Virus record (IMG/VR): IMGVR_UViG_3300025652_000398
Coordinates: 1-27,985 of that record
Length of the DNA stretch: 27,985 nucleotides
Source of the DNA: a virus
Reading direction: 5' to 3' (one strand)
Shown: piece after piece, positions 1,232 to 26,920 of the stretch
How the letters are laid out: each line of letters begins with the position of its first letter
Numbering within the stretch: position 1 is the first letter of the stretch
Notes under the pieces: generated by a model
Seen by the model: the letters and a program-made list of their open reading frames with translations, nothing else
What the model was told of the DNA's origin: nothing
The model's database searches: none
Made by a program: the position numbers and the translations under genes

Positions 1232-1249
1232 TATGTAAGTGCTGACATA
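1232..1249 (-). promoter_or_regulatory. 18-bp dyad site upstream of helicase
   Basis: Sense strand reads TATGTCAGCACTTACATA, a member of the family TAnGTCA-N4-TTACwTA seen in seven intergenic gaps of this window. It ends next to the AGGAG ribosome site of the helicase gene and overlaps the outer arm of the hairpin at 1244-1292. Role as operator or promoter element is inferred from repetition and position only. Confidence 0.6.
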
Positions 1250-1292
1250 CGCTTGGGCGCATAAATTCACATTATGCGCTCCAAAGTATGTC
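1244..1292 (-). promoter_or_regulatory. Long hairpin in helicase leader
   Basis: Inverted repeat with arms 1244-1264 and 1272-1292 and a 7-nt loop at 1265-1271. In the minus-strand transcript the pairs are GACAUAC with GUAUGUC, UUGG with CCAA and GCGCAUAA with UUAUGCGC. This gives 19 Watson-Crick pairs plus one possible G-U, interrupted only by single-base bulges. No U-run follows, so it does not look like an intrinsic terminator. It ends about 20 nt before the start codon. It could be an RNA processing or stability element, a translational control structure, or a protein-binding DNA palindrome. Confidence 0.7.
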
Positions 1293-1310
1293 TTATTGTG
1301 CTTGTTTTTG

Positions 1311-1319
1311 AGTATAGCA
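1311..1319 (-). promoter_or_regulatory. Possible extended -10 promoter before helicase
   Basis: Sense strand reads TGCTATACT, an extended -10 (TGn plus TATACT, five of six to TATAAT) just downstream of the preceding stop codon. No -35 hexamer is visible at the usual distance. If used, its transcript would start before the hairpin at 1244-1292 and carry it in the leader. This is a sequence match only. Confidence 0.35.
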
Positions 1320-1327
1320 AAGCGCGC

Positions 1328-2077
1328 TTAGGGATGCGCTAGGTATTGCTCGATTTTTTGCTGATCATCTTCGTCAGGATAGCGCGCGCGGACCTTTTCC
1401 ATCGGCAACATGTCCTGTCTGATCATATGCGCCAGAAAGTAAAGAGGATCTGAACGGCGCATGGACTGCGCAAACAGCCATTCGTGATAATCATCCTGCA
1501 CCTTTAGACCGTCATAGTTCTGCACCAGAAAGGCAGGATGATCCGAGGTCCAGGTGTCCGTGCCCATCAGTTCTTCCCAGCGCTGAGAAACCTTGTCGAG
1601 AACGACCGCGTGATACAGATGTTCGGGCTGTGGCATGTGACGCTGCTGCCAACGGCGCATGCGAAACGTCATGGCATTCTCGATGTAGTGCTCGTATGGC
1701 ATTCCGATGCCATCCGCAAACTGACGGCCACGCCAGCACCCCGTCAGAACACGCTTCCACTTTGTCTCGCCTTTCTCAACCCCCTGAACGATACTATCCC
1801 AAGTCAAAACGCGCAGGTGCTCGGAACGCTCGCGGTCGATTTCGCGTCTGTAAATGCGTCTGTAAATTTCGCCATATGCTGCAACATAGGCCTTTGTCGC
1901 TTGAAGCGGCGTCATGAAGCGATAGTCGAACCACTTGGTGTCGCTCAACATCGCTTCATAATTGTGGAACTCCTTCTTTACGAAGGCCTGTGCGAAGAAA
2001 TCATTCTCCAAAATGTGGTCAGTGCCACGCATTTCGTTGTCGAGCTGCTGCGATGTGAAATAGGTCAAGAGTGACAA
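1328..2077 (-). CDS. Hypothetical protein between phoH and helicase
   Basis: Unrecognised protein of 249 residues. I place the start at TTG 2077 (protein begins LSLLTYFTSQQLDNEMRG) because AAAGGA lies seven bases upstream. A longer reading from 2167 would overlap the phoH end by 34 nt without a comparable ribosome site. The protein is hydrophilic, rich in Trp, Tyr, Arg and His, mostly helical by eye (for example the YRRIYRREIDRERSEHLRVL segment), and has no signal peptide, membrane segment or recognisable nucleotide-binding motif. It is followed by the DnaB-like helicase. Genes just before a phage helicase sometimes encode helicase loaders or replication accessory proteins, but nothing in the sequence proves that here. 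Confidence 0.75.
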   Translation of the reverse strand: MSLLTYFTSQQLDNEMRGTDHILENDFFAQAFVKKEFHNYEAMLSDTKWFDYRFMTPLQATKAYVAAYGEIYRRIYRREIDRERSEHLRVLTWDSIVQGVEKGETKWKRVLTGCWRGRQFADGIGMPYEHYIENAMTFRMRRWQQRHMPQPEHLYHAVVLDKVSQRWEELMGTDTWTSDHPAFLVQNYDGLKVQDDYHEWLFAQSMRRSDPLYFLAHMIRQDMLPMEKVRARYPDEDDQQKIEQYLAHP

Positions 2078-2133
2078 GATGATGTCCTTTGTTAATCTAC
2101 TTCTGTTATAGTCACACCGCAGCTGGGATGCGC

Positions 2134-2874
2134 TCAGTTTGAATACATTTTCACAATGTCCATGCACAAACCGGACCGGACGATGTCTTCTACGTCAAAG
2201 CCAACAGCCGATATGTCTTTGTGCCCTCTGGTCCGCTCGATCGCATCCGTCAGTCCCGATGAGGCACCGATGTCTGACTGGTCCGGGTCGCCGGAGATGA
2301 TGAACTTTGAGTTTTCACCAATCCGCGTCAGAAGCATTTTCATCTGAGCCTTTGTGGCGTTCTGCATTTCGTCCGCCAAGAGCCAGGTGTTCTTGAAAGA
2401 GGCGCCACGCATGAAGCCCATCGGGCGCGGATCAATGATCTTGCGCTTCAACAGATATTCCAGATGCCCTGTGCCCAGACGTTCTTCCAGCGCCTGATAA
2501 AAAGGCTCGAGATAGGGATCGTATTTGTCCTTCATCTCGCCCGGCAGAAAGCCCAATTTCTCCCCTGCCGCCTCGACGGCTGGCCGAACCAGAATGATGT
2601 TCTCGATCAAGCCGTCGCGCAGCGCATCAGCGGCGCGACATGTCGCAAGATAGGTCTTTCCTGTGCCTGCAGGACCGTAACCATAGATCAACTTCTTCGA
2701 CCGAATGGCATCATCATAGCGCGCCTGCGCATCTGTCAGTGGCTTGATAATGACGGAGCTTGGTTTCTTGCCTGCTTTTGTGATCTCCTGTTCAGGAGGT
2801 GTGGTCTCGGCAATATGAATCCTGCGCTGCGCCCGACGTGTCTGACGAGCGGCAACTTTGTGGTTCTTTTTCAT
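2134..2874 (-). CDS. phoH: PhoH-like ATPase
   Basis: PhoH-family P-loop ATPase of 246 residues, widespread in marine phages. Its biochemical role in phage is unsettled; some relatives are linked to RNA metabolism or phosphate stress. Walker A GPAGTGKT is at about residues 67-74, Walker B LLADE at about 165-169 followed by the family-typical MQNAT, and ISGDPDQSD with the SGL that follows matches the PhoH signature. The first 40 residues are basic (MKKNHKVAARQTRRAQRR), possibly nucleic-acid contacting. The start at ATG 2874 has a weak GGAAA upstream; an in-frame TTG at 2889 would add five residues but has no ribosome site. It stands behind a 160-nt gap with a dyad site and a long inverted repeat, suggesting its own transcription unit. 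Confidence 0.93.
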   Translation of the reverse strand: MKKNHKVAARQTRRAQRRIHIAETTPPEQEITKAGKKPSSVIIKPLTDAQARYDDAIRSKKLIYGYGPAGTGKTYLATCRAADALRDGLIENIILVRPAVEAAGEKLGFLPGEMKDKYDPYLEPFYQALEERLGTGHLEYLLKRKIIDPRPMGFMRGASFKNTWLLADEMQNATKAQMKMLLTRIGENSKFIISGDPDQSDIGASSGLTDAIERTRGHKDISAVGFDVEDIVRSGLCMDIVKMYSN

Positions 2875-2933
2875 GTTGGGGGTTTCCAAGCTGGGATGTG
2901 TAAAAGGACTCTAGCTCAAACTTTAGGACAGGT

Positions 2934-2947
2934 TAAGTCTTGACTTA
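2934..2947 (-). promoter_or_regulatory. Dyad site upstream of phoH
   Basis: Plus strand reads TAAGTCTTGACTTA, a short inverted repeat with TAAGT and ACTTA arms. On the sense strand it begins TAAGTCA like the other family members, but the second half-site is degenerate beyond TTA. It sits 60 nt before the phoH start. It is the weakest of the seven sites in the outer half. Confidence 0.5.
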
Positions 2948-2961
2948 CTTATTCTTTAGTT

Positions 2962-3032
2962 TCCCCTGCGACCGCAAAACTATTTCATTGGTGCGCTTAC
3001 CTACCGGTGACAAATGCCGCGGTCGCAAGGGA
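2962..3032. repeat. Inverted repeat in phosphoesterase-phoH gap
   Basis: Arms 2962-2975 and 3019-3032 are reverse complements over 14 bp with one mismatch (2966 against 3028). The inner nine bases, TGCGACCGC and GCGGTCGCA, are perfect. The 43-nt spacer contains a short ACCGGT palindrome. The structure starts five bases after the phosphoesterase stop codon. It lacks a U-run, and the spacer is long for an intrinsic terminator. It may be a protein-binding or RNA-stabilising structure. The 160-nt gap holds no gene that I can support. Confidence 0.6.
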
Positions 3033-3036
3033 TCTC

Positions 3037-4227
3037 TTATAACAGAAGAAGGTTACGCGTGCGCTCCGACTTCATGTTAAAACCAATAGCCATGACGGCC
3101 GAATGTGACTTGTATCCGCCCGAGGCGTGCTGATCACGCACAGTCAAGGCTGGCATCTGCATCCAGTAAATGCCCGGAAACTCGTCTGCTTTGATGTGAT
3201 GAAGGTGGCCGGTCATAACGATGCGGTAGCGCGTGCGGCCCCAAACGTCTGGAAACTCGGCCGCGCAGAACATCGCCAGATCCTTTGGCGTGCGCTTGTC
3301 GCCGTGATGAATGAAGATAGCCACCTCGCCATGTTCAACGACAGAAAATTCAGATGAGCCCGGCGCCTCGAAGTTCATGTAGATTTTGACGCGCGGATTG
3401 TCACGGTAGCGATAATGAAGACCGATCAGAATGGTCTCCCAGTTCTGCGGATCGTGATTGCCCGGAACCGAGTAATATTCAACCACCTCATGCTTGACCA
3501 AGGCCATCTCGATGCAGGATGATATGACGCTGATTGCCTCGAAGACGGTGAAGTAATTGCGACCATCTACGTCGAGCTGGTGATTTGACCGGCGTGTAAC
3601 ATTGCGGTCGTCGGTCTGGTGCGTAAAGTCACCACCGTTGATAATGACGCCGCGGTAGGCATTCGGTGCGCCGGCCATAACAGAAGACATTGCCGCCTTG
3701 ATACGATTACTGCCGATCTCGAGGTTCATTTCCTCACCGGATGCGCCTTTATGTGCGCGCATGCCCAGATGAGCGTCAAAGAGCGGATAGACGACCATCA
3801 TTTCCGGATCTGTGATCATTGATGCGATGATCTCGGGCGCGGCTGGAACACTCTGCAATGCCTCACGCACCTGATCCAGAAACTCTTCAGGCGATCCGGC
3901 TTTCATGGGCGCCAGTTGCATCGAATATTTCTGGTCTTTGATCCACAAGGACTTCGGGATCATTTTAGAGCCGAAGTGATCCATTGCCTCGACGATCGCC
4001 GGATCAACTGTGTCTCTTTCCACATATGCGGTGTAGCGGTCTATCAGAGCCGGAACATTCTCACCTGCACGCAGGCGGTTTCGCATAATGGCCGCGTAAT
4101 TGGTTACGGTCTTGGAAGACCTTTTCAGCTCTCTCGCCACGTCTTCCAAAAACGGATAGGTCTTTATGTCGTTGTAGATTTCCGCGAACCGGATGTGCTT
4201 ATCTTTGGTTGATTCAGAACCGTTCAT
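3037..4227 (-). CDS. Calcineurin-like metallophosphoesterase with HTH-like N-terminus
   Basis: Predicted two-metal phosphoesterase of 396 residues. The metal-binding motifs are all present in order: DAH at 151-153, GGD at 198-200, GNHD at 256-259, HHGD at 307-310 and GHLHH at 340-344. The N-terminal 60 residues contain a helix-turn-helix-like segment (FLEDVARELKRSSKTVTNYAAIMRNRL), suggesting DNA contact or a targeting domain fused to the enzyme. This architecture occurs in several phage proteins; the substrate (nucleic acid, nucleotide or protein phosphate) cannot be read from sequence. The start at ATG 4227 lies inside one arm of a 15-bp perfect inverted repeat, with a purine-rich AAAGAGAAAGAA ribosome-site candidate in the loop. 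It lies between the lysis cassette and phoH. Confidence 0.88.
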   Translation of the reverse strand: MNGSESTKDKHIRFAEIYNDIKTYPFLEDVARELKRSSKTVTNYAAIMRNRLRAGENVPALIDRYTAYVERDTVDPAIVEAMDHFGSKMIPKSLWIKDQKYSMQLAPMKAGSPEEFLDQVREALQSVPAAPEIIASMITDPEMMVVYPLFDAHLGMRAHKGASGEEMNLEIGSNRIKAAMSSVMAGAPNAYRGVIINGGDFTHQTDDRNVTRRSNHQLDVDGRNYFTVFEAISVISSCIEMALVKHEVVEYYSVPGNHDPQNWETILIGLHYRYRDNPRVKIYMNFEAPGSSEFSVVEHGEVAIFIHHGDKRTPKDLAMFCAAEFPDVWGRTRYRIVMTGHLHHIKADEFPGIYWMQMPALTVRDQHASGGYKSHSAVMAIGFNMKSERTRNLLLL

Positions 4228-4277
4228 CGTAAGTAGTTCTTTCTCTTTAAGGTATAGTATATCTTACGATGAACGGT
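4219..4277. repeat. 15-bp perfect inverted repeat over phosphoesterase start
   Basis: Arms ACCGTTCATCGTAAG (4219-4233) and CTTACGATGAACGGT (4263-4277) are exact reverse complements with a 29-nt AT-rich spacer. One arm contains the phosphoesterase start codon (4225-4227), and its purine-rich ribosome-site candidate lies in the spacer. The other arm ends five bases from the stop of the preceding gene. In mRNA the arms would pair and mask the AUG. The spacer also contains TATACT-like sequence on the minus strand, but no -35 partner. The structure is certain; its function is inferred. Confidence 0.75.
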
Positions 4278-4282
4278 CCGGT

Positions 4283-4720
4283 TTAATTCCAGAACGGCGT
4301 TCTTGTAAGCCAGGGTGTTGGAACAGAAAACTTACCGAAACCGATCCGGCAGCGGTGAAACACATCGGCGTAGCTTTCATGCAAAAGAACCTCCGGCGGT
4401 GCTGCCTGAACATGCCAATTCTCAAAGACATGAAATCCAGCAAAACGAACCTCTGGGGCGCCCCAGACGTAATCGACCGGCGAGTCATTGCCGCCGCGCT
4501 CACCTTTGCGCCAGCGGATATATTCCGGGTTGCAGCTGTTGCGAAGTTTGAAGAAACTACCGGAGACATAAACCCATTCACTTGAGTTTTCATCCTGCAC
4601 TGCGGTCATAAAGACTCGATCCACGACGGGAAAGTATTTCCCCTCAATGGTGCCCGGACCTATAAGCGAGATCCATCCAGCAGAAAGAACAGCAGTCCAA
4701 ATATGGAAAGCGTGTTTCAC
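4283..4720 (-). CDS. Small exported protein at end of lysis cassette
   Basis: Unrecognised protein of 145 residues starting at GTG 4720, with GAGGA as ribosome site and a 4-nt overlap (GTGA) with the stop of the holin candidate. Residues 7-25 (IWTAVLSAGWISLIGPGTI) form a hydrophobic segment after a short N-terminus, consistent with a signal peptide or single membrane anchor. The rest is hydrophilic with two cysteines (NSCNPEY and FHRCRIG) that could form a disulfide in the periplasm. Coupling to the lysis genes suggests a role in the envelope, such as lysis timing or superinfection exclusion, but this is context only. The gene looks real from its tight overlap and ribosome site. Confidence 0.7.
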   Translation of the reverse strand: MKHAFHIWTAVLSAGWISLIGPGTIEGKYFPVVDRVFMTAVQDENSSEWVYVSGSFFKLRNSCNPEYIRWRKGERGGNDSPVDYVWGAPEVRFAGFHVFENWHVQAAPPEVLLHESYADVFHRCRIGFGKFSVPTPWLTRTPFWN

Positions 4721-5070
4721 AAATCTTCCTCCACTCGACGTTTCTTTCCAAAAGCGGCTTCAACGATACCAGGCGCGACAGAAACGATGCCGCGCACCAG
4801 ATGCTCGCCTGTCAGAACAAGACCAATGACGACAAGGTCACGGTCCTCGACTGACAGCGTCGAGAAATTCCGAATAATCATATCCGTGCCGTAATACGCA
4901 GCGACAGCGCCAGCGATGACTCCACCGACCGCTTCTTTGCGTGTGGCGGGCCGTGGCGAGAAGAAATATTTGACAGCAGATCCAACAGCAACGGCGGCCC
5001 AGAACTTTAAGTCCTGACCCAGAATCGCAGCTTCGTTCAGGACATCCATCCAGGACTGATGACTACTCAC
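4717..5070 (-). CDS. Holin candidate
   Basis: Protein of 117 residues with two or three hydrophobic segments: FWAAVAVGSAVKYFF (about 23-37), AVGGVIAGAVAAYYGTDMII (about 47-66) and LVVIGLVLTGEHLVRGIVSV (about 79-98). The tail is charged (GKKRRVEEDL). Size, hydrophobic pattern and position between the spanins and the end of the cassette fit a phage holin, which permeabilises the inner membrane to release the endolysin. The start at GTG 5070 is chosen because GGAG lies eight bases upstream and the codon overlaps the outer-spanin stop; ATG 5049 is a possible second start, as seen in dual-start holins. I do not see a motif tying it to one holin family. Confidence 0.7.
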   Translation of the reverse strand: MSSHQSWMDVLNEAAILGQDLKFWAAVAVGSAVKYFFSPRPATRKEAVGGVIAGAVAAYYGTDMIIRNFSTLSVEDRDLVVIGLVLTGEHLVRGIVSVAPGIVEAAFGKKRRVEEDL

Positions 5071-5645: not shown

Positions 5646-6329
5646 TCACAGGTAATTGCGTCCCTTGAGCGCGGTATGAAGCGCGGCGCGTGTCATGGGT
5701 CCGGAGACGCCATCGACAGTGAGTTTGGCTTCTCTTTGAAATCCGGCGATATTTGCAGGCCCAAAACCAAGCACGACCAGAGCCAGACGATCATACCGCT
5801 CGTAACGGTCTTTCAGACCATTGAAGCCACCATTGATCCGGCGCGTAACGGCCCGGACGTCGCCGGTGTCAGCCAGATCGTTCAGGTTATTTGCGCGCCA
5901 GAACCAAATCGGCACAAGACCCTCCCAGGGATCTGTCAAAACCTTGTCGGGGTTTTTTGTAAAATCAGGTGCGCTCGGGTCAGCCCGGCGCGCCCACTCC
6001 GTAAACTTGGTGTAATTGTAACGACCGGTGATCTGGATCGGTCCGCGACCGCGAAACTTCGAGCCGTCTCCAGCGATCACATTTCCGAGATCACGGCGCC
6101 CCTCGTAGCGGCTTTGAGCGGCTGTCGGGCCCCAAATCTCACGGTCATACCGAAAGTCACCGGACTCGTGTCCGAGCTGAGAGCCGTAATGCACGAAACG
6201 GTGTGGCTTATCGAGACCAACGCGCGCACCAAACTCCTCAAGCGCAGTTGCGACCGAGTTCAAATTGCTACTTACAGGCACAGCCTTGCTGGATTTTGAA
6301 AGAAGGAGTGCGATTTTGGAAGAGTTCAT
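5646..6329 (-). CDS. GH19-family endolysin
   Basis: Predicted peptidoglycan-cleaving endolysin of 227 residues in the chitinase-like GH19 lysozyme family. The expected family motifs are present: GSQLGHESGDF with the likely catalytic Glu55, YEGRRDLGN with the second acidic residue Glu76, and GRGPIQITGRYNY at about 94-106. The C-terminus (GFQREAKLTVDGVSGPMTRAAL) resembles a peptidoglycan-binding repeat. There is no obvious signal peptide, so export would need the holin. I place the start at ATG 6329; an upstream in-frame GTG at 6377 would read through the dyad site and the predicted transcription start, and is less likely. It is the first gene of the lysis cassette, behind a promoter at 6366-6394. 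Confidence 0.92.
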   Translation of the reverse strand: MNSSKIALLLSKSSKAVPVSSNLNSVATALEEFGARVGLDKPHRFVHYGSQLGHESGDFRYDREIWGPTAAQSRYEGRRDLGNVIAGDGSKFRGRGPIQITGRYNYTKFTEWARRADPSAPDFTKNPDKVLTDPWEGLVPIWFWRANNLNDLADTGDVRAVTRRINGGFNGLKDRYERYDRLALVVLGFGPANIAGFQREAKLTVDGVSGPMTRAALHTALKGRNYL

Positions 6330-6346: not shown

Positions 6347-6364
6347 TAAGTAAGCAGTGACTGA
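6347..6364 (-). promoter_or_regulatory. 18-bp dyad site upstream of endolysin
   Basis: Sense strand reads TCAGTCACTGCTTACTTA, a family member (TAnGTCA-N4-TTACwTA, one mismatch). GTCA starts four bases after the -10 hexamer, so the dyad would cover the transcription start. This placement is typical of an operator, or of a phage-specific promoter extension. Confidence 0.6.
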
Positions 6365-14117: not shown

Positions 14118-14901
14118 CGGTCGGTCCCTCATATCTCATCCATTTGTGGGCGGCGCGCGCCCAGATACCCGCTGGTTCGCGTCGAGACAGACGACCCGGA
14201 AGGTGATGTAAAATCATGCCACCGCCGACCAGAACGCCGCCGTGATTGAGTTTCTCTGAGCGGATGGATGTCAGAAACACGTCACCGGGCTGTGCGTGAT
14301 CAAGTGCTATCTCACGAAAACCCCACTTCGGCGCATTCTCCGTGTAGAGATCGTAATCCGCTTCCCACCAGCCGTCTTCGCGTGGGCAATCCTTCATAGG
14401 AACTGGCGGATAGGGCCATCCCTCGACGCCATGCTCAGACATGCCTTCTTTGCCAAGACGAAATGCGTCGCGGATCAGGGTAAAGCAGTCGGCTGCATAG
14501 TGAACAAACTGGCGGTTCAGAATAGGCTGCACCGGCAACATATCGCCCCAGGTCAGCACATCTGAAATGCGCTCATCATCCAGTGCGATCAAACCCCAAG
14601 GCAGCCCGGACTTGATCTGGCTTTCTGCGTCCGTAACAGACGGGTGCGTAGGACCGCCGGGATGTGAGTGCAGCACCATCTGAATACGACCGTGATATTT
14701 CACCATGATCTCAGCAGGGATGCGAAACGAGCAAAGCTGACACATGCAGTCAGGGTTCTTAGCTTCATGCGTGTCTACGGGGCGCGCTGTGTTCACGCAG
14801 GGCACGTATCCGTCATCAACGACGAGCCCACAGCTCTCACGGGGGTATTCATCGCGTGCGTGTCGCTTTGCAGCGTCAAAGGCTTCTTTGAGGTTCATCA
14901 T
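14110..14901 (-). CDS. Lambda K-like tail protein: JAMM (Mov34) plus NlpC/P60 peptidase
   Basis: Two-domain tail-tip hydrolase of 263 residues. The N-terminal JAMM/Mov34 metalloprotease-like domain has E22 (RESCGLV) and HSHPGGPTHPSVTD at 78-91, giving the H-x-H...S..D zinc set. The C-terminal NlpC/P60 domain has candidate Cys139 (YAADCF) and His220 (LNHGGVLV), with His232 or 233 as the third residue. The pair is characteristic of lambda gpK, which is needed for tail-tip formation and may cut peptidoglycan on entry. The ATGATG start overlaps the L-like gene stop by 4 nt. A cysteine cluster CMCQLC (52-57) after the first strands is an added detail. Confidence 0.93.
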   Translation of the reverse strand: MMNLKEAFDAAKRHARDEYPRESCGLVVDDGYVPCVNTARPVDTHEAKNPDCMCQLCSFRIPAEIMVKYHGRIQMVLHSHPGGPTHPSVTDAESQIKSGLPWGLIALDDERISDVLTWGDMLPVQPILNRQFVHYAADCFTLIRDAFRLGKEGMSEHGVEGWPYPPVPMKDCPREDGWWEADYDLYTENAPKWGFREIALDHAQPGDVFLTSIRSEKLNHGGVLVGGGMILHHLPGRLSRREPAGIWARAAHKWMRYEGPTDA

Positions 14902-15602
14902 ATTGACCGCCCCATGCCTGGAAAGCCGCCAAATGGAAGACGCGCACCTACGCCGAAGCGATTTGTGCAGCAGGTCTTGTTACGTGCCGGACGGTCTTTC
15001 GACTTGTCAGTGGTCAGTTGATTGAACTCATCCCAGAAAGTGCCCCCTGTGTAAGGGCACTCGGCATTGGTGTAGTCAAAATCAACGCCGTTATAGGCAC
15101 GGTATTGAAACAGACAGGTGTTGCGCACGGCGGCGCGACCCGGAAGCATAACGCCTTCCTGATCAATCGCCGCGGAAAGCTCCCAGGTGATGCTCTCGGG
15201 AAGATCGGCTGACTTGCGCTCGATCTTGAAAATATCCGGCCCAATGAAGGACGTGTCATCTGCCTCGGGCGCCCCATCCAGAAAGCGCGCGAAGGTGCGC
15301 ACACGGGTCAGCTCGCAACCGTTCAGATCGCCATAGGTGTTTACCGCCGCCTGGATCAAACCGTCGGTGTTTGCCAAGATCAAACTGGGCTGCGGCAATG
15401 CCCCAACGCCGGTCGTCTCCATGCCCTCGAAAGAGATGTCGATGGCCGTGTAGGACGTGCCGCCAAAGACGACTGGTCCGTCAACCTCTGCTGACATTGA
15501 AAAATGCAAAACAGGTCCACCAACTGACGTGCAGTCGAGCTGGAACAGCTGGATCAGCGCGCTCGGATCGAGCTTCTGAATTTCGGAATTAATATCTGGC
15601 AT
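14898..15602 (-). CDS. Lambda L-like minor tail protein
   Basis: Tail-tip protein of 234 residues. Four C-terminal cysteines, C163, C182, C211 and C212 (RNTC, AECPY, KTCC), match the set that lambda gpL-type proteins use to hold an iron-sulfur cluster. The N-terminal part (SALIQLFQLDCTSVGG, then FGGTSYTAIDISFEGMETTG) is the usual hub-forming domain start, and the end (RFGVGARLPFGGFPG) is the family's conserved C-terminus. It lies between the M-like gene and the K-like gene. A dyad site lies 26 nt upstream of its ATG 15602. Confidence 0.92.
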   Translation of the reverse strand: MPDINSEIQKLDPSALIQLFQLDCTSVGGPVLHFSMSAEVDGPVVFGGTSYTAIDISFEGMETTGVGALPQPSLILANTDGLIQAAVNTYGDLNGCELTRVRTFARFLDGAPEADDTSFIGPDIFKIERKSADLPESITWELSAAIDQEGVMLPGRAAVRNTCLFQYRAYNGVDFDYTNAECPYTGGTFWDEFNQLTTDKSKDRPARNKTCCTNRFGVGARLPFGGFPGMGRSI

Positions 15603-15627: not shown

Positions 15628-15645
15628 TAAGTCACTTGTTACTTA
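15628..15645. promoter_or_regulatory. 18-bp dyad site in M-L gap
   Basis: Plus strand reads TAAGTCACTTGTTACTTA, two half-sites TAAGTCA and TTACTTA with a 4-bp spacer, the cleanest dyad of the family. Its better-matching orientation is opposite to that of the sites at 1232, 6347, 22269 and 26903. I see no -35/-10 pair beside it. Confidence 0.6.
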
Positions 15646-16012: not shown

Positions 16013-19000
16013 TTATCTCCGGTTCAGGACGTTGCCGGGGCGCATTGCGCTGCGAATTTCGCTTGCCACGGTGCTTTTCATCGACTGTTCGAAATGGATC
16101 GCCATGCGCTTGGCCAGATCCTCGTTCTGCTCGTTTGTTCCGGCTGATCCCGCAACACTGATCGGTGCGCTGATCTGGATGCCCTGCGCTGTGAGAGCCC
16201 CAACAGGCGCCAGTGCGGACATCTGCTCCTTGGTGAACACACCTTCGCCTTCCATTGCGATAATGGGGCGCTCACGCGGTCCCAGACCCATTCCACCAAT
16301 GATGTCACCTGAGTGATACCGCGGTGCGCCGGCGAAGATCATCGGAGATGCCATTTTCGTTCTGAGACCCGAAGAGGCACCAACGATACCGCCTGAGTGC
16401 TTCATCGGAAACGGCATTTTTCCACCAGCGCCGGCACCGCCCTTGGCACCGCCGAGCTTCGCGCCGACATCGCTTGTCTTGCCGCCTGCGAAGGACGAGA
16501 ACATCCACTTCACGCCCATATTGACGACATCACTCAGCATACCGTCGATAGCGGACTTCAGATCACCAGTGCCGGTAATCAGACCCGTAACACCACTTGC
16601 AAGACTGTCTGTCCACTGGGTCGATTTCTCAACCAACTGACCCTGCAAGTCGCGCCATTCACGCATCTGTCCCGCCAGCGGGTTCAGTGTGGCTTCGTAT
16701 TTCTGCCGGATCGCTGCTTTCTGCTCCTCGACGAACCGAGTGATCTGAATCTCGGACTCCCCCGCCGCACGCTTCATCTGAACGGTGCGATTGACCATAT
16801 CCATCTCGCGCTGCATCTCGGTGCGCGCAAGCTGCATCTTGGTCATTGTTGTATCGAGGATCTGACGCCGTGCGAGGTTGGCATCTGCGGTGCGCTCTGC
16901 TGCCTCGAGGCGCGTCTGATCCTTCAGCATGTTGGCTTTAGTATCAAGTGCCTGCTTATAGGCGGCACTGTCTTCACCATAAGCGCGTCTGACGTTGTCC
17001 AGATATTGATCAAGCTGCTCATTGAGCTTGACCATGTCATTGGTCATACCTTCGTAATCAGGATTTGCAGCGCGCGCCTGTGCTTCCGCCAACTGACGGT
17101 TGATGTCGGTGCGCTGCTTCTCAAGCTCAAGTTCTTCGCGTGTGCTGTCGGTGCGCGCCTTGCGCCGACCAGCGGCGTCACGCTCGACATCGTCCAGCTG
17201 CTGTGCGGCAGCCAGCAAGTCTTTGTAAATACCGGCGTCAATCGACCGCTCGGAACCCAGCTTACCGGTTTCGATCGCCTCGATCAGCTCACGGTAGTTC
17301 GCGCCCAGATTTTCTGTGTCCTGTGTCGCGGCTGTCTTTCCGGCTGCCAGTTTGTCGAGATACTCGTTGCGGCTTTGCGCGAACTCTCCTTCGGTGAGGC
17401 CGGTATCGACAGTCCTCATTTTGGCAAGCTGTTCGACGTAATTCCGTGTGGCTTCTTCTGCCTGCGCAATCAGGTTTGCGGAGATATTCGTGTCAAAAGG
17501 CACAGGTGCGGTCGCAGGAGTGCCCTTGGTCAGCGAATAAGCGTTCGTCGCCGCCTGGCGACGTTTATCCTCATGGGCGTAATCTTTGTGCGGACGCTCG
17601 TATTCCTTCATGAACATGGATGCCGCTTCTGCCGGTGAGGCAGCGAGGTCCATACGCGCCAGCAAAGAGGCATATTCTGTGCGCAACTCATGCACAGCAA
17701 ATTTGACCTGCGCCAGTGGCTCAGCTTCATTCATACCCATTTTACCGGAGAAGTTCTTCAGGTTCGTCCAGCGGCCCTTACCCGGTGTCGGGTCGCGCCA
17801 TTGCGCCAAACCAAAGGACGTGCCTTTATCTCCGAGCGCCTTGGTGTTGAAATTACTTTCGACCTTGAAGTTACCCGCCATGGCTGCCGCAACTTTATCC
17901 GTCAGACCTTCTGCCTTCAGCATTCCGATGATGGTCTGCATGGACTGTTTGCTCTCGCCGGTCATACCTGCGAAATTCGGCGTCAGTCCGCCACTGCCTT
18001 CGCCAAAGATCGAGTGCCCACCGAGCATGCCCAATGCCCCGCCCAGGCTTCTAATGGCTGTCTCAACAGTGTTGATACGTCCTACGGTCGCTTCACCAAA
18101 TGTGTTCTCGCGCATCGCCGTCGCAACACGGTTCAAAGTGTCACCCTGAATGTTCAGAGTTCCGACAATATCCTTGATGACCTTGTTGACGCTGTTTGCT
18201 GGGCCCAGACCTGGGTAGAAGCCGCTATCAAGGCGCTGCTGGATCTTATCGACCTCGCTCAGCTCCTGACCGGACGCACGGCGTTCAAGCTCCATACGGC
18301 GCTCGATCTGTCTCTGGCGCGTGCGCTCGATGTCTGCCTCGATCGCGGTGCGACCTTCCATCAGCTTATCGAGAATTTCTTTCTGGCTTACGGCTTCCAT
18401 CAACTCGTTGTGCAACTTGCGCACCGCATCCGTGCCCTCTTCCAGAGAGCCAAAGTCGCCCCGCTCGATGCGATACATCATCTCGGCAACAGCACCGGAC
18501 GCGCCACCCAGTTCAGCTTCGAGGCTTTTCACATCGCGCAGGATATTGTTCAGCTCTACACCGCCGCGCTTCAGCTTATCATCGAGGCTTTCAATTTTAA
18601 CGCCGATATCAATTCCATTTGCGGCATTCTGAAGCGCGATCATTTTCGCACGCGCCGCTTCCATCATCGCCACAACAATGTCGAGCCGGGACTGGGCCGC
18701 CAGGTTCTGAATTGGATCTGTTGATGCGTTCAGCGCCGTTTCTGTTTCACGGCGCAGCTCATCGAGAATGTCCAATTCGTCCTGAGCTGCTTTCTCACGG
18801 GAGACGTTCAGTGCTGCGTTGTAGCGCTCGTTAATCTTCAGAAGGGACTCGCCTGTCTCACTGCGCGCCGCAAGTTCCGCTTTGTGCTTCTCCTCAAGCG
18901 CGACGATTTCATCACGATAGGCACGCTTTGATGTTAGCGTGCGGTCGGAAATCTCCTCTTCGAGCAGACGTGTTGTTTCACGGTCTTCGTTTTTACCAGC

Positions 19001-20623
19001 GCGCTTGATCGCATCGGCTCGAAATTCCTCGATTGCGGCAATCTCGGCGTTGAGCTCCTCGAGTTCTGCTTTTGTGGTCTCGAGGCTTCTGTTGGTGCTG
19101 TCGGCGATTGCGCCCGTGCCGGCGGCCTTGGCCTGCCTCTCCAACCGTTTGACCGTCAATTCGATCAGCTTGCGCTGTTCCATCAACTGATCGACGCGCT
19201 CCTGAATGATCAGGTTAGCCTGCTCGCGAGTTTCTGTGCCGAACTCCCTCAGTTCTTCATAGGCATCCTTGACTTTATTCTTGAAAAGACCGAACTGCCC
19301 CGCCGCAATTGCAACAGCAATACCGATCGCCGCAATCCACGGTGCAAAAGCCGTAAGCAATGTGCCAACAGCACCAAGTGATAACGCACCTGCGCGTGCC
19401 GCAGCGGTCATTGTCAGTAAGGCTCCTGCCCCACTATTGGCCCGGATTGTTGCGTTCAGCATTGCAGCGGAGGCGACAGCCATCTGACCGGAGAAGGCGA
19501 CCATTCCTACTTTGGTGGCCGCAAGAGCAAGTGAGATAGCACCAATACCAGCCGCAACTGACCGAAATATCAAAACAGCAATAAGAGCTTTGCCAAGCGC
19601 AGCAAGCCCATCGCGGAATTGATACAGCATCTGGATCGCAATACCGATCTTGTTCGCCAGTGAACTGAGCGTGTTTCCGATCTGGTCTGCAATCTTGAAG
19701 CCCTGAGATGACCGCAGGAAAGCGTTCAATTCACGGACAAGATCCTTCAGTGTCACATTGACGAAAGTAGAAAGACCTTCGCCTGTGGCCAACTTCTGCA
19801 GGTTTGCGTTCAACTGAGTGACCTGACCGGAGAAGGTCTGCATCATGCGCTGCGCTGTGCCACCGTAAGTGCGGTCAAGCTCGTCATAGAAGGCTGCCAG
19901 TGCGGGACCGGCCTGAACCATACCTGTGGAGATCGCGGAGACCAATTCCTGCACAGATACGGACATGGAGCGCGCCATCGTCTGCATCGCATTGGGCATG
20001 GATTCCGAGAGCTGCTGGCGCATCTCTTCCATCTGAATCACAGATTTACCAGACATTTGCTGGATGCCGAGCGTAACCCGGTGCAGCTGTTCGTCCGTGC
20101 CGCCAAAGGCCGCGATACCATCTGTCAGCGCATTCATGGCGCCCTTCATAGGGTCGATGCCGGTGGTGCGCAGTTTTACGAATGTGGTGGACAGTTCACG
20201 CAGCGAGAACGGAACCTTTGTCGCCATGTCGCGCAGATAGTTGACGTTGTCTGCGGCTTCCTTGATCGGATCAGAGGCATTGGACATGCCTTCCATCTGA
20301 AAGCGCAAGCGCTCCATGTCCGCGTTGATCTTGACGATCTGACCAACCAGACCGGAGCCTGAGCCGGTCAGTGAGTTGAACAGGATCGACAGACCGCCTG
20401 CAACAATGGAGACATCCCGCATCGTGCCAAGCAGCGTGCGATGGGAAACGTCGAGTTTGTTCGCCGATGTGACAACACCGGCGCCCGAAGACATCAGCTT
20501 TCGATAATGCGGATCAAGACGCGCAAGCTCGTTACGGAAGGACGTGAGGGACTGACCAGCGCGCAACATGCCGCTGGTGAAGGAACCGTCCGAGAGTTGA
20601 AGTTCTACGCGAATTGCTGGCAT
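16013..20623 (-). CDS. Tape measure protein with tail lysozyme domain
   Basis: Tape measure protein of 1536 residues, which sets tail length; at about 0.15 nm per residue it would predict a tail of roughly 220-230 nm. The N-terminal part (TSFRNELARLDPHYRKLMSSG, then RLRFQMEGM ... IQMEEMRQQLSESMPNAMQTMARSM) is the tape-measure domain. Hydrophobic segments at about 350 and 430 (APWIAAIGIAVAIAAGQFGLF) could enter the membrane on injection. Residues of about 893-1010 (AGNFKVESNFNTKALGDKGTSFGLAQWRD) form a phage-tail-lysozyme domain with Glu in KVESNF as likely catalyst. Long charged coiled-coil stretches surround it. Start ATG 20623 has no strong ribosome site and a dyad site sits just before it. 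Confidence 0.95.
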   Translation of the reverse strand: MPAIRVELQLSDGSFTSGMLRAGQSLTSFRNELARLDPHYRKLMSSGAGVVTSANKLDVSHRTLLGTMRDVSIVAGGLSILFNSLTGSGSGLVGQIVKINADMERLRFQMEGMSNASDPIKEAADNVNYLRDMATKVPFSLRELSTTFVKLRTTGIDPMKGAMNALTDGIAAFGGTDEQLHRVTLGIQQMSGKSVIQMEEMRQQLSESMPNAMQTMARSMSVSVQELVSAISTGMVQAGPALAAFYDELDRTYGGTAQRMMQTFSGQVTQLNANLQKLATGEGLSTFVNVTLKDLVRELNAFLRSSQGFKIADQIGNTLSSLANKIGIAIQMLYQFRDGLAALGKALIAVLIFRSVAAGIGAISLALAATKVGMVAFSGQMAVASAAMLNATIRANSGAGALLTMTAAARAGALSLGAVGTLLTAFAPWIAAIGIAVAIAAGQFGLFKNKVKDAYEELREFGTETREQANLIIQERVDQLMEQRKLIELTVKRLERQAKAAGTGAIADSTNRSLETTKAELEELNAEIAAIEEFRADAIKRAGKNEDRETTRLLEEEISDRTLTSKRAYRDEIVALEEKHKAELAARSETGESLLKINERYNAALNVSREKAAQDELDILDELRRETETALNASTDPIQNLAAQSRLDIVVAMMEAARAKMIALQNAANGIDIGVKIESLDDKLKRGGVELNNILRDVKSLEAELGGASGAVAEMMYRIERGDFGSLEEGTDAVRKLHNELMEAVSQKEILDKLMEGRTAIEADIERTRQRQIERRMELERRASGQELSEVDKIQQRLDSGFYPGLGPANSVNKVIKDIVGTLNIQGDTLNRVATAMRENTFGEATVGRINTVETAIRSLGGALGMLGGHSIFGEGSGGLTPNFAGMTGESKQSMQTIIGMLKAEGLTDKVAAAMAGNFKVESNFNTKALGDKGTSFGLAQWRDPTPGKGRWTNLKNFSGKMGMNEAEPLAQVKFAVHELRTEYASLLARMDLAASPAEAASMFMKEYERPHKDYAHEDKRRQAATNAYSLTKGTPATAPVPFDTNISANLIAQAEEATRNYVEQLAKMRTVDTGLTEGEFAQSRNEYLDKLAAGKTAATQDTENLGANYRELIEAIETGKLGSERSIDAGIYKDLLAAAQQLDDVERDAAGRRKARTDSTREELELEKQRTDINRQLAEAQARAANPDYEGMTNDMVKLNEQLDQYLDNVRRAYGEDSAAYKQALDTKANMLKDQTRLEAAERTADANLARRQILDTTMTKMQLARTEMQREMDMVNRTVQMKRAAGESEIQITRFVEEQKAAIRQKYEATLNPLAGQMREWRDLQGQLVEKSTQWTDSLASGVTGLITGTGDLKSAIDGMLSDVVNMGVKWMFSSFAGGKTSDVGAKLGGAKGGAGAGGKMPFPMKHSGGIVGASSGLRTKMASPMIFAGAPRYHSGDIIGGMGLGPRERPIIAMEGEGVFTKEQMSALAPVGALTAQGIQISAPISVAGSAGTNEQNEDLAKRMAIHFEQSMKSTVASEIRSAMRPGNVLNRR

Positions 20624-20634: not shown

Positions 20635-20653
20635 TAAGTCAGTGGTTACGTTA
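20635..20653. promoter_or_regulatory. Dyad site upstream of tape measure gene
   Basis: Plus strand reads TAAGTCAGTGGTTACGTTA: TAAGTCA, four bases, then TTACGTTA, one base longer than TTACwTA. It sits 11 nt before the tape-measure start and overlaps the stop of the chaperone frame. Same orientation as the site at 15628. Confidence 0.5.
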
Positions 20654-21357: not shown

Positions 21358-21388
21358 GTTCTGTTCCGATTATATGGGAAAGGTTGAG

Positions 21389-21410
21389 GGGTCGGCATCA
21401 CTGCCGACCC
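21389..21410 (-). terminator. GNRA-capped hairpin after major tail gene
   Basis: Perfect 9-bp stem GGGTCGGCA / TGCCGACCC with a GUGA tetraloop in the sense RNA, six bases after the major tail stop. Only a weak pyrimidine tract (CTCAACCTTTCCC) follows, so it is more likely a partial terminator or a 3'-end stabiliser that raises major tail output over the chaperones than a full stop. Confidence 0.65.
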
Positions 21411-21416
21411 GATTGA

Positions 21417-22241
21417 TTAGGCAGATGCCTTCTGGTTGCCGATCTCAAGCAGCGAGCCGTCTGCAAGGGCGTAACCCTTGAACTCGATGTTGTAGATCCG
21501 CTCCTGATTGGTGTTGTAGGAGAAGTTCAGAGCGCCAGCAGATGCGGCCTTCAGAATGACGAAGTCATCCTCACCGGATGTGCCTTTGGGACGCAGAACC
21601 AGCTTCTTACCGATTGTGCTCAGGTTGATGTTGATACCTGTCGAGACAGCAATCTTCGCGACAGTCGGGTCAACACCGCCGGTCGGGTTTGAGAAGGCGA
21701 TGTTTACGCCAGCTGTCTTGGTGATGGTGACGTTACCCCAGATGCCGCGTGTCTCGGCAGTGATTGTTACGACACCAGCAGCAACAGTCGCGGTAAACCC
21801 ACAAGGTGTGTCATTCACGGCAGCGGCGAAGTTGATCGCAGCAGCAGTAAAGGTTGCGCCTGGAGCCACTTCGTAAGCAGTTACAGGAGACGCCTTGAAG
21901 ACGAAGTTGATCCCGTTGATGTTGACTGCATCATTCGTGGTAGGTGCAGCAACAGAGAAGGTGACTGTGCCTGTGGCCTTGACGCCATCAGAGATCAGCA
22001 CGGAGCCGGGCAGAACATCAAGCAGGTTCTCCAGGGCTGTTTCGGCCATCGGCACGGTGGCTTTCACCATGCGGCCGATAATCAGTTCGCCGATTGGGGT
22101 GTCACCCAGCTGGTCGACTGTGATTTCATAAGTTGAGGTCGAGACCTCGGCAGTGACGCCGCCCTTGGTAAAACCAAGGTCGCGGCCGCCAAAAAGGGCA
22201 TTACATACACCCAGTTTTACGTTTTCAGTGGACGACGGCAT
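21417..22241 (-). CDS. Major tail protein with inserted domain
   Basis: Predicted tail-tube subunit of 274 residues. Position before the G/GT chaperones and tape measure identifies it. The outer parts (MPSSTENVKLGVCNALFGGRDLGFTKGGV ... and LRPKGTSGEDDFVILKAASAGAL) look like a tube protein. Between about residues 90 and 190 there is a Thr/Val/Ala-rich module (TVTFSVAAPTTNDAVNINGINFVFKAS ... FTATVAAGVVTITAETRGIWGN) that resembles a repeat found in some phage sheath and tail proteins, probably displayed outside. I place the start at ATG 22241 with GGAG seven to eight bases upstream; ATG 22256 lacks such a site. A promoter-like pair and a dyad precede it. Confidence 0.88.
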   Translation of the reverse strand: MPSSTENVKLGVCNALFGGRDLGFTKGGVTAEVSTSTYEITVDQLGDTPIGELIIGRMVKATVPMAETALENLLDVLPGSVLISDGVKATGTVTFSVAAPTTNDAVNINGINFVFKASPVTAYEVAPGATFTAAAINFAAAVNDTPCGFTATVAAGVVTITAETRGIWGNVTITKTAGVNIAFSNPTGGVDPTVAKIAVSTGININLSTIGKKLVLRPKGTSGEDDFVILKAASAGALNFSYNTNQERIYNIEFKGYALADGSLLEIGNQKASA

Positions 22242-22268
22242 GTCGAATATCTCCATTCAGCTTTGAGC

Positions 22269-22286
22269 TATGTAAGTAATGACTTA
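22269..22286 (-). promoter_or_regulatory. 18-bp dyad site upstream of major tail gene
   Basis: Sense strand reads TAAGTCATTACTTACATA, an exact match to TAnGTCA-N4-TTACwTA. As at the endolysin, GTCA begins four bases after the -10 hexamer of the candidate promoter at 22288-22316. Confidence 0.65.
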
Positions 22287-24836: not shown

Positions 24837-24881
24837 TTGGCGCTCCGTTAATGGCTATGTAGCCGGAGTTGGAGGTGTGGT

Positions 24882-24904
24882 GGTGGGACTTAGAAAGTCC
24901 CACC
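24882..24904 (-). terminator. Hairpin over fibre stop codon
   Basis: Perfect 10-bp inverted repeat GGTGGGACTT / AAGTCCCACC with a 3-nt loop. The stop codon of the HxH fibre gene (24890-24892) falls at the loop. A CACCACACC tract follows instead of U residues, so it is not a standard intrinsic terminator; it may slow transcripts or protect 3' ends. The gap 24837-24889 holds no gene. Confidence 0.55.
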
Positions 24905-26269
24905 GTCGATGACGATGTTGTCGATTGAGCCGCCGGTGATCGCGACAGCGTTGGCGCTCTGCGTTGCGATAGACCCAAGACCAAGGTTGCTCCGGGCTGT
25001 GACCGCGTTTGTCAGATCCGAAAGGTTGCTGGCTTTTACCAGTTTTTCAGAGATCGAGTTCGTGACGGTTGTCGCGAAGTTCGGATCATCACCAATGGCA
25101 GCAGCCAGCTCGTTCAGCGTATCCAGAGCAGTCGGCGCCGCCTCAATCAGAGCCGCCACAACGGCCTTCACGTAGGCTGTGGTCGCGATCTTCGTTGAGT
25201 TGTCAGTCGATGCCTGTGTTGGCGCCGTTGCGACACCTGTCAGCGCAGGACCAGCAAGAGGCGCCTTTGCATCCAGTGCCACCTGAAGACCAGTGGTCTC
25301 GGAGATGGCATGCGTGTGTGCGGAAGGTGTAAATGTGGAAGGTTTGCCTGTGATACCAGACCAAGGTGCCGCTTCGGCGACCTCTGCGAGATCAACCTTG
25401 CCGTTGTTTGTGCTGTCGTATGTGACCTTCAGCATGTCACCGGCACCAAAGCCCGCCAAAGCGGTTACAACATAAGCTGTGGTAGCGACTTGCGTGGTGT
25501 TGGTATTTGCAACAGCCGTTGGCGCCGTAGGAACACCTGTCAGTGCAGGGCTCGCGAGAGGTGCCTTTGCGTCGATTGCAGCCTGAAGACCTGTGACGTT
25601 AGCGATGCTGTGGGTATGTGAAGACGCTGCTTTGCCGTCCAATGCCGTCTGAAGACCTGTGACGTTGGCGATCGCATGCGTGTGCGCGGTCGCGGACTTA
25701 CCGTTCAGTTCCGTCTGAAGGCCTGTTACGTCGGCGATTAAATGCGCATGACCTGTCGCGGACTTGCCATCAATGGCCGCCTGTAAACCCGTAACATCGG
25801 CAATCGCATGACCGTGACCCGTCGCGCTCTTACCATCCAAAGTCGTCTGAAGGTTGGTGACATTCGCAATCGTGTGCGTGTGTGCTGTGGGTGCTTTACC
25901 GTCCAGTGCCGTCTGAAGACCTGTGACATCAGAGACGGCGTGCGCGTGCGATGTTGCCGCTTTTGTTCCAAGCAAGGTATCAAGCTGGGACTTGCGCACA
26001 AGATCGGTCGACCCGGAAGCGTCTTGAGATGCTTTCGGAACCGTCGAGAATGTCTTGGCACCGGCAACCGTCTGGCTGGATGTCAAATTGACAAAAGCAC
26101 CAGAGCCACCAACGGGCACAATGGAAGTGGCTACACCGCCGCCATCATCGCCCTTACCGGCATAGATGATGTCGTCCACCATGTTGTATGCCGGTTCACC
26201 AGATTTAAGCGACGCCGGAGATCCGGCGGCACCTGTGACGCGACGCTTGAAGCGAATTTCGTTACTCAT
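24890..26269 (-). CDS. Repeat-rich tail fibre with HxH motifs
   Basis: Fibre protein of 459 residues, start ATG 26269 behind AGGAGG. The N-terminus (MSNEIRFKRRVTGAAGSPASLKSGEPAYN) is related to that of the neighbouring 706-residue protein and probably anchors both in the virion. About six tandem 22-residue repeats of the type KSATGHGHAIADVTGLQAAIDG follow, then two copies of a KAPLA.PALTGV.TAPT...ATTAYV unit. HxH motifs of this kind bind iron in T4 long-fibre tips and occur in many trimeric fibres. The protein ends NIVIDGGTF, and the shorter fibre gene upstream ends ILDGGHF. Trimeric beta-helical fibre is inferred from the family. Confidence 0.82.
   Translation of the reverse strand: MSNEIRFKRRVTGAAGSPASLKSGEPAYNMVDDIIYAGKGDDGGGVATSIVPVGGSGAFVNLTSSQTVAGAKTFSTVPKASQDASGSTDLVRKSQLDTLLGTKAATSHAHAVSDVTGLQTALDGKAPTAHTHTIANVTNLQTTLDGKSATGHGHAIADVTGLQAAIDGKSATGHAHLIADVTGLQTELNGKSATAHTHAIANVTGLQTALDGKAASSHTHSIANVTGLQAAIDAKAPLASPALTGVPTAPTAVANTNTTQVATTAYVVTALAGFGAGDMLKVTYDSTNNGKVDLAEVAEAAPWSGITGKPSTFTPSAHTHAISETTGLQVALDAKAPLAGPALTGVATAPTQASTDNSTKIATTAYVKAVVAALIEAAPTALDTLNELAAAIGDDPNFATTVTNSISEKLVKASNLSDLTNAVTARSNLGLGSIATQSANAVAITGGSIDNIVIDGGTF
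25570..25965 (-). repeat. 66-bp tandem repeats in fibre gene
   Basis: About six adjacent 66-bp units encode 22-residue HxH repeats ending LQ..LDGK or LQ..IDGK. Codon-level similarity is high enough that copy number could change by recombination. Limits are approximate. Confidence 0.75.
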
Positions 26270-26278
26270 TTAGGCCTC

Positions 26279-26593
26279 CTAAAAATGACCGCCGTCGAGG
26301 ATTGAATGTTCGTGGCTATCGTCAATGACAGTTGCCTCGAGAGTGACATCCGAATTTCCGTCAAAGGCGACTGAGCCTGAGACATCACCGGACAGTGAGA
26401 TAATACGCGCGGTAACAAGACCGCCTGGGTCGCCCTTGTCGCCTTTTGGACCGATAAAGAACGGCAGCAATCTGAGACGAACCTCGTCATCGCGCTCGCC
26501 AAGAGCCAAGACACCCGAGCCGAAGTCTGATGTCAGCGTTGCGCTGGATACCAGATCGGGCTTGAGGTTGATCTGACTTGCAAAGGTGCTCAT
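26279..26593 (-). CDS. Short collagen-like fibre protein
   Basis: Protein of 104 residues. I place the start at ATG 26593, which overlaps the previous stop as ATGA and follows GGTGG. An upstream start at 26737 would add 48 residues of shadow sequence inside the preceding gene. A collagen-like Gly-X-Y run (GPKGDKGDPGG) sits about residues 45-55, followed by ISLSGDVSGSVAFDGNSDVTLEATV, a motif common at the tips of phage fibres, an HEH motif and the DGGHF ending. It may be a short fibre, or an anchor or trimerisation piece for the longer fibre encoded next. Confidence 0.75.
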   Translation of the reverse strand: MSTFASQINLKPDLVSSATLTSDFGSGVLALGERDDEVRLRLLPFFIGPKGDKGDPGGLVTARIISLSGDVSGSVAFDGNSDVTLEATVIDDSHEHSILDGGHF

Positions 26594-26892
26594 TCCACCA
26601 CCTCGAAATGCGCGGCTTTTGTCGAAACGCTTTCGCCTGAAGGTGATGTGAATTTCAAGGTCAGCTCGGCCTGACCAAAAGGCCAACGATTGGTGTTGTT
26701 CGTGCTCAATCGCACCGTGACCCCTGCTTCGATCCATGTCGCGGGAACTGAAACATCGTCACCTTCATCCACAAAGCGCACCCGCCCGCTGACCCTCCAT
26801 GTAGAGAGGTCAAGCGGTTCACCCTCTGCGTTCTTTACAGAGACCGGACCCGACACCGAGAAGGTATCGCCCTGGGCAAACTCATAGGACAT
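26590..26892 (-). CDS. Ig-like hypothetical fibre/baseplate protein
   Basis: Small beta-rich protein of 100 residues (FSVSGPVSVKNAEGEPLDLSTWRVSGRVRF ... GQAELTLKFTSPSGESVSTKAAHFEVVE) that resembles an immunoglobulin-like fold or the N-terminal domain of some baseplate and fibre-adaptor proteins. Start ATG 26892, with a dyad site 11-28 nt upstream. It is first in the adhesin island and overlaps the collagen-like gene by 4 nt, so it probably forms part of the adsorption apparatus. Not assigned to a family with confidence. Confidence 0.65.
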   Translation of the reverse strand: MSYEFAQGDTFSVSGPVSVKNAEGEPLDLSTWRVSGRVRFVDEGDDVSVPATWIEAGVTVRLSTNNTNRWPFGQAELTLKFTSPSGESVSTKAAHFEVVE

Positions 26893-26902
26893 TGGAAAAA
26901 CC

Positions 26903-26920
26903 TAAGTAAGGACTGACGTA
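26903..26920 (-). promoter_or_regulatory. 18-bp dyad site at start of adhesin island
   Basis: Sense strand reads TACGTCAGTCCTTACTTA, an exact match to TAnGTCA-N4-TTACwTA. It lies 11 nt before the Ig-like gene. A weak TTGAAT ... TAGGTT pair with 17-nt spacing can be drawn upstream, but I do not trust it. Confidence 0.6.

Follow-up and report, generated by a model that had tools for sequence, protein, structure and literature searches.

Symmetric 18-bp dyads dispersed before the genes of Rhizobium phage relatives are candidate operators of a phage-encoded repressor

The viral record IMGVR_UViG_3300025652_000398 (IMG/VR) was analysed over positions 1 to 27,985, a stretch of 27,985 nucleotides (nt) called the window throughout, and was found to be a 28-kb fragment of a phage whose relatives include the Rhizobium phages V1VFA-S, B1VFA and RHph_X66 (118–122 kb). 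It carries a family of seven 18-bp dyads in the gaps before genes; the initial annotation had described this family correctly, and it is far larger than the window shows. The dyads are probably the operators of a single phage-encoded helix-turn-helix (HTH) repressor. The candidate for this role is an XRE-family protein of about 130 residues, encoded beside repC in relatives of the phage, which would bind to the dyads.

With up to three mismatches, the dyad was matched at seven distinct places in the window. The pattern TAAGTCA-N4-TTACTTA returned 14 matches at this threshold, counted strand-wise and with shifts, whereas 100 dinucleotide shuffles gave 0.79 on average and 4 at most. The asymmetric form first described is present in both orientations within the window, and the palindrome is better given as TAAGTMA-N4-TKACTTA. 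The dyads, to which no strand is assigned, all precede genes of the minus strand. They lie at 1232–1249 (exact; 9 nt before the start of a DnaB-like helicase gene, 2–1222), 2934–2951 (one mismatch; 59 nt before phoH, 2134–2874), 6347–6364 (17 nt before an endolysin/chitinase-like gene, 5646–6329), 15628–15645 (exact on the plus strand; 25 nt before tail gene L, 14898–15602), 20635–20652 (two mismatches; 11 nt before the tape measure gene, 16013–20623), 22269–22286 (exact; 12 nt before the major tail protein gene, 21417–22256) and 26903–26920 (exact; 10 nt before gene 26590–26892). Six of the positions given earlier were thus retained, while the site placed at 2930 and called degenerate in its outer half is in fact the one at 2934, with its single mismatch. 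To the three sites listed as exact (1232, 22269 and 26903) 15628 has to be added, making four of the seven exact to that consensus. The description of the gene behind 26903 as Ig-like (immunoglobulin-like) found no support, as a PHROG search with gene 26590–26892 gave no match at E ≤ 0.001; it is the major tail gene that matches Ig-domain PHROGs. All seven dyads are intergenic under gene starts chosen by hand, in gaps amounting to 2.9% of the window, with 20635 sharing two bases with the preceding gene. For this count the gene set was replaced by hand and the later ATG starts at 1222 and 6329 were used. The statement that no site lies inside a gene holds under these starts; dyads 1232 and 6347 would fall inside longer open reading frames (ORFs) started by GTG, and the gene finder used in this analysis picked the longer helicase ORF, to 1270.

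The dyads are also abundant beyond the window. Thirty-six viral records, taken from the relatives' loci and including four near-identical to the window, were scanned, and all of them match at up to two mismatches, some relatives by PhoH only having just one match (G026, control 1). Among the seven records longer than 110 kb, five gave 39–51 matches (controls 0–1, except G028 with 44 and a control of 8), G033 gave 31 (control 12) and G023 gave 23 (control 7, variant word). Because T.A.T.A palindromes do not suit a reversed-pattern control, counts with spacers of 3 and 5 were relied on for them, with Markov controls for the numbers. When the half-site was set to T(A/C)A(G/A)T(A/C)A and up to one mismatch was allowed, 28–46 sites were found in each of 16 relatives (91–121 kb), compared with 0–2 sites in each of three Markov simulations per relative. 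The 108-kb record G041 (L277) stands outside this count; it has the XRE gene and a sigma factor, yet its commonest dyad is another word, TATAAA-N6, and its operator code may have shifted further.

Over 18 records, which include near-duplicates (G012/G022 and V1VFAS/X66), 483 of 501 sites are intergenic and 18 are coding, though 78–97% of the bases are coding; the comparison of coding with intergenic matches proposed in the initial annotation therefore favours its claim. Enumeration of dyads without a seed ranked a piece of the dyad word, sometimes register-shifted, first in six of eight records (the exceptions being the 40 kb of RHEph10 and a plasmid with clustered regularly interspaced short palindromic repeats, CRISPR), and a second such enumeration ranked a piece of this kind first in eight of 12 (exceptions G039, G041, G045 and L287). 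When motif models were iterated, they strayed to unrelated words in seven of the 36 records (G032, G011, G014, G027, V1VFAS, KlebPPp and L267); these rows were set aside, and fixed-core counts and earlier models were used.

Conservation was assessed in relatives whose N-terminus could be aligned and for which 170 nt of upstream sequence were available, using the degenerate pattern at up to two mismatches and counting near-duplicates. The dyad is kept upstream of the orthologs of DnaB (23/28), PhoH (14/14), L (22/22), tape measure (18/22), major tail (19/20) and endolysin (1/1), and of one of the two testable orthologs of gene 26590, as the claim of a maintained motif at orthologous gaps would have it. 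Genes lacking a dyad in the window usually lack one in the relatives too, namely J (0/23), I (0/22), M (0/23), 20651 (0/20), 26941 (0/20), 27345 (0/18), 27818 (0/16), 1328 (0/11), 6461 (0/11), 22716 (0/1) and 24890 (0/1), with some occurrences at the exonuclease (2/19), K (4/23) and 21007 (6/16).

The closest relatives of the window's tape measure protein belong to B1VFA, RHph_X66, V1VFA-S and the RHEph10 group (115–122 kb), and comparison of PhoH agrees on this kinship with Rhizobium phages; more distant tape measure relatives are found in phages such as SSU5 and nickie, and the phage of the window is distantly related to SSU5-like phage-plasmids. A megablast of positions 1–24000 of the window against the phage collection gave no match. 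Genes for ParA, ParB-like and RepC proteins are present in V1VFA-S and RHph_X66, which combine phage structural genes with plasmid genes, and B1VFA and V1VFA-S were called possible prophage-plasmids in their announcement, in which the dyads are not mentioned (PMC12509600). Tape measure relatives also occur on bacterial plasmids of 115–119 kb in Rhizobium, Sinorhizobium, Shinella, Pararhizobium and Methylobacterium, and 755 records of the plasmid collection match this protein, mostly partially and mostly in Klebsiella and Escherichia. The window ends short of the replication and partition region, and its phage may well be a phage-plasmid that carries the XRE protein like its relatives.

In the annotated relatives, the 130-residue HTH (XRE) protein adjoins repC and is followed by CobT-like and CobS-like proteins, a sigma factor and DnaE. 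The copy of V1VFA-S has the accession QNH71710.1. A homologue was found in 15 of 18 records searched, the other three (the window, G007 and G014) being fragments. A dyad lies within 350 nt upstream of the XRE gene in 32 of 33 records (degenerate pattern, up to two mismatches), mostly at 95–175 nt. In 11 of 15 records of the TAAGTAA type (A-type), the near half of this dyad contains TTGAC, compared with mostly TTAC at other sites, and this TTGAC is possibly a −35 box; a −10 box at 17 bp from it was seen by eye only in V1VFA-S and pLM21S1. TTGA was counted by hand in the near half in 24 of 33 records, a number that is informative only for A-type records, where the usual near half is TTACTTA, because TGACTTA is an ordinary half in phages of the TAAGTCA type (C-type).

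An AlphaFold model of the XRE protein (predicted local distance difference test score, pLDDT, 80) was matched to P22 c2-operator complexes with Z 9.1 and a root-mean-square deviation of 2.0 Å over 64 residues. Many other XRE proteins match as well, and HigA antitoxins, DdrO, SinR and C-proteins score near P22 c2, so that the fold names no function. Pfam HTH_3 was above the cut-off for the first member of the family, eight of 14 members were matched at E ≤ 0.001, and a PDB sequence search gave one weak match, to 8bny ("Immunity repressor protein", E 8e-4).

The dyad word was found to vary together with one residue of this protein. Sites were selected by core, with only T.A.T.A fixed and half-site positions 2, 4 and 6 free, and position 6 was compared in records with a known XRE protein and at least six sites (L267, G012, G041, L285, L287, Cyrano and the Klebsiella stretch were dropped for too few sites, and G007, G014 and the window because no XRE protein is available for them). 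A exceeds C at this position in all 13 records with Asn at residue 37, and C exceeds A in all 13 with Lys, Arg, Gln, Ser or Thr, G039 being nearly even (50 to 42). Asn is found at residue 37 in 13/13 XRE proteins of the TAAGTAA type and in 0/15 of the TAAGTCA type or mixed type, and this residue is the only column of the protein that separates the 13 from the 15 without error, the type labels of L267, L285 and L287 resting on two, two and no core sites. It directly precedes helix 39–46 of the model, at the head of the recognition helix. The tree, in which six of 28 inner branches are well supported, needs three to four changes of type, and G039 (Ser, mixed) is sister to G017 (Asn, A-type). This covariation, seen in sequence, is suggestive; its signal rests mostly on where the column lies, and shared ancestry weakens the test.

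Sites combining one A half with one C half exceed expectation in two phages with Ser37, G039 (25/37, p = 0.02) and G043 (34/51, p = 0.003); the corresponding figures are 19/47 in G033, also Ser (p = 0.15), and 7/10 in the window (p = 0.16). Chromosomal homologues of the XRE protein were also collected (141 found, 80 kept, 79 examined). These 79 (L184–L262) are mostly from Rhodobacterales and mostly have Asn at the key position.

Similar dyads occur in enterobacterial elements. The Klebsiella plasmid NZ_CP031803.1 has 27 forward matches to TARGTAANTACTTAYCTA in about 22 places (up to three mismatches; reversed control 1), and Cyrano, an SSU5-like phage-plasmid of E. coli, has 18 (same threshold; reversed control 0). 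At up to two mismatches Cyrano has 22 sites, 20 of them intergenic. Its protein CYRAN_45 is a homologue of the XRE protein and is described, in the accessible part of the Cyrano paper, as a putative repressor expressed 10-fold above background in the LF82 lysogen transcriptome (PMC9928086). CYRAN_45 as the likely master repressor is that paper's annotation and is already known.

The position of the dyads relative to promoter-like boxes was examined in 422 oriented sites with full flanks and a distance to the start codon below 150 nt; the median distance is 27 nt over 464 non-coding sites (G023 left out). CTATAA begins at −8 from the dyad in 39 of the 422, compared with a mean of 0.9 at other offsets, which means that the dyad would cover the transcription start. 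CTTG begins at −8 in 34 sites, compared with a mean of 1.7 at other offsets. The arrangement TA...T, formed by the two bases that close the dyad and the four that follow it, is present in all 34 of these and in 85 of the 388 others (p = 4e-21, a value that is too strong since sites at orthologous promoters are not independent), which points to −35 and −10 boxes with the dyad inside their spacer. Site 15628 of the window belongs to the same class (L class), with CTTG at −8 and TATTAT at the far end. By eye, CTAAAG stands at the −8 offset of 2934, TATAAC ends one base ahead of 6347, and CTTGCC-N17-CTATTT lies directly upstream of 22269. Overall, 75 sites were classed as CTATA and 34 as CTTG, giving 109 in which a promoter-like box stands at, or close to, a set distance from the dyad. 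A symmetric word found at two or more fixed positions relative to such boxes fits an operator better than a promoter or an RNA hairpin. Dyad pairs about 50 bp apart were observed in V1VFA-S at 39976/40028 and 47485/47535, before the putative major capsid gene and V1VFAS_076; these are possibly cooperative or looping operators.

Under the repressor model, each two-fold symmetric dyad, with its 7-bp half-sites and 4-bp spacer, would take one XRE dimer, and a dimer placed at the start site or in the −35/−10 spacer would block RNA polymerase. Dozens of phage transcription units could in this way be silenced separately, keeping the element silent as a plasmid, while the dyad upstream of the repressor's own gene would provide autoregulation. 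Loss of the repressor would be expected to open early and late promoters alike.

Several observations weigh against this model. The window is without the regulator region, and searches for the regulator of its phage did not supply one; a search with the nearest-type XRE protein for the window phage's copy returned two loci, neither from the window's samples. As many as 313 of the 422 sites belong to neither promoter class. Regarding covariation, G041 (Ser, another word, four core sites mostly A) is a misfit, and at baseline 128 of 15,351 columns in 61 shared phage proteins split 10 versus 10 genomes equally well, 23 of them with one fixed residue in the A set, compared with two of 101 XRE columns. 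Asn also occupies the corresponding position in most of the 79 chromosomal homologues, yet none of them has a dyad at −400 to +600 of its gene, four dyads being found elsewhere. In Cyrano, CYRAN_45 itself is without a dyad site, and an upstream dyad was found for 0/14 lysogen-expressed genes compared with 18/109 others, a difference in the predicted direction that is not significant (p = 0.22).

The dyads might instead be bound by a different phage protein (ParB-like, TerS-like HTH, CopG-type or unknown), the XRE gene being merely linked. This is improbable, although it is the alternative that survives best. Other conserved proteins also split with the motif type, for example the ParB-like protein at position 117 (V1VFA-S gene 30626–31372), and the dyad-free chromosomal homologues would suit it. 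However, the XRE gene has a dyad of its own at a similar place in most records, its product has the P22 c2 fold, and the splitting column stands at the head of the recognition helix.

A slightly smaller probability is given to a phage activator that has the dyads as its operators and turns on genes in a phase. Activators of this kind include Lpa of P1 and Ogr of P2, many of the sites stand before late structural genes, and a dimeric regulator is implied either way. Against it, the classed sites (109/422) overlap the likely start or the −35/−10 spacer, where a bound protein blocks polymerase; the dyads serve replication, nucleotide and structural genes alike; and the candidate's homologue is annotated as a repressor and transcribed in the lysogen.

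The initial annotation had offered either the site of a phage-encoded regulator, which is supported, or a phage-specific promoter, which is not favoured. That the dyad or its half is a promoter element read by a phage polymerase or sigma factor is in fact quite unlikely. The dyads do precede many transcription units, and a sigma-70-like gene lies between CobS and DnaE in the annotated Rhizobium relatives (X66 L163:19303–19947) and was matched in 17 of 19 records, metagenomic ones among them; this factor could read one of the two promoter classes. The word is symmetric, however, its orientation is independent of the gene, its position varies relative to the −35/−10-like boxes, and the Klebsiella plasmid and Cyrano gave no match to the phage sigma factor, yet have similar dyads. 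Least likely of all is that the dyads work as RNA hairpins in 5' leaders, affecting translation or the stability of the mRNA: the transcript of a DNA dyad can fold, and the sites lie close ahead of start codons, but the half-sites are uncompensated (a C/A mismatch in the mixed sites of G039 and G043 counted above), and L-class sites, lying in the −35/−10 spacer, would not be transcribed.

The operator model can be extended tentatively to a supergroup of phage-plasmids reaching from Rhizobium and Methylobacterium to Klebsiella and E. coli. Lysogeny in this supergroup would be maintained by distributed repression, in which nearly all promoters, whether early or late, have a separate, near-identical operator occupied by a dimer of the same small HTH protein. 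Repressor and operator word would diversify together, giving rise to immunity groups by way of a few residues of the recognition helix (Asn37 reading A, Lys, Arg or Gln reading C, and Ser mixed). This extension is judged conceivable but somewhat short of probable, the chromosomal homologues, which mostly have Asn37 yet are without the dyad, counting against it. If true, the SSU5-like group would gain a master repressor with a readable operator code, the regulated units of an element could be listed from sequence alone, and mutually excluding elements could be predicted in the same way. According to the accessible part of a review, the lysogeny regulators of several other phage-plasmids have been named, while no such regulator is given for SSU5-like elements, which have integrons with resistance genes (PMC11652158).

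Two further features of the window were observed. Positions 25566–25957, within gene 24890–26269, hold five 128-nt copies at 66-nt spacing, and the gene encodes a tandem-repeat tail/fibre-like protein with repeated units resembling AHTHxIxxVTGLQxALDGK (by eye). The gap 21358–21416, between the major tail gene and gene 21007, contains a strong inverted repeat, GGGTCGGCA...TGCCGACCC, which is terminator-like with no T run.

No account of the symmetric dyad set was found in the literature searched, in which subscription journals are thinly covered. Representatives of alphaproteobacterial phage clusters have been MEME-scanned, with RHEph10 as a singleton, and the dyad is not mentioned in the accessible part of that study (PMC10783043); two others, as far as their accessible text goes, deal with LexA and CtrA sites (PMC9700832; PMC9437464).

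Among known systems, P22 c2 resembles the candidate in that the model of the latter fits the c2-operator complexes. The P22 operator is likewise an 18-bp dyad with a 4-bp spacer. The two proteins share 17% identity, however, no cleavage domain is apparent in the candidate's 130 residues, and dozens of dispersed sites are found here in place of the clustered operators of P22. Cyrano shares the homologous protein, the same CobT/CobS/DnaE neighbourhood and the 22 similar dyads, and differs in its word, which is of the TARGTAA type, and in having no site at CYRAN_45; operators are not mentioned in the accessible part of its paper (PMC9928086). In a 42-kb Tritonibacter phage-plasmid, loss of one C1-type HTH repressor is reported to lead to the lytic state; this is a different element, and a word search for operators in the accessible text found none (PMC10090143).

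The C1 repressor of P1 has 22 operators dispersed over the genome of that phage-plasmid, as given in the accessible part of the source (PMC8546580). The likeness lies in a single phage repressor served by numerous copies of the same site in front of genes, as with the numbers found in the 16 relatives. The P1 operators are 17-bp and asymmetric, whereas the dyads described here are 18-bp palindromes of another word and for this reason are not classed as C1 operators. The stoperators of cluster A mycobacteriophages (L5) are also dispersed repressor sites whose sequence drifts with the repressor, according to the part of the source available (PMC6550527). They are asymmetric, mostly in one orientation and mostly away from promoters, and they block elongation; the present dyads are symmetric, and a quarter or so of the oriented set (109/422) has a promoter-like box whose offset is constant or nearly so, the remainder having no recognisable one. 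The control proposed here would work like that of P1 C1 and the L5 stoperators, and by the symmetry of its sites it is a member of neither.

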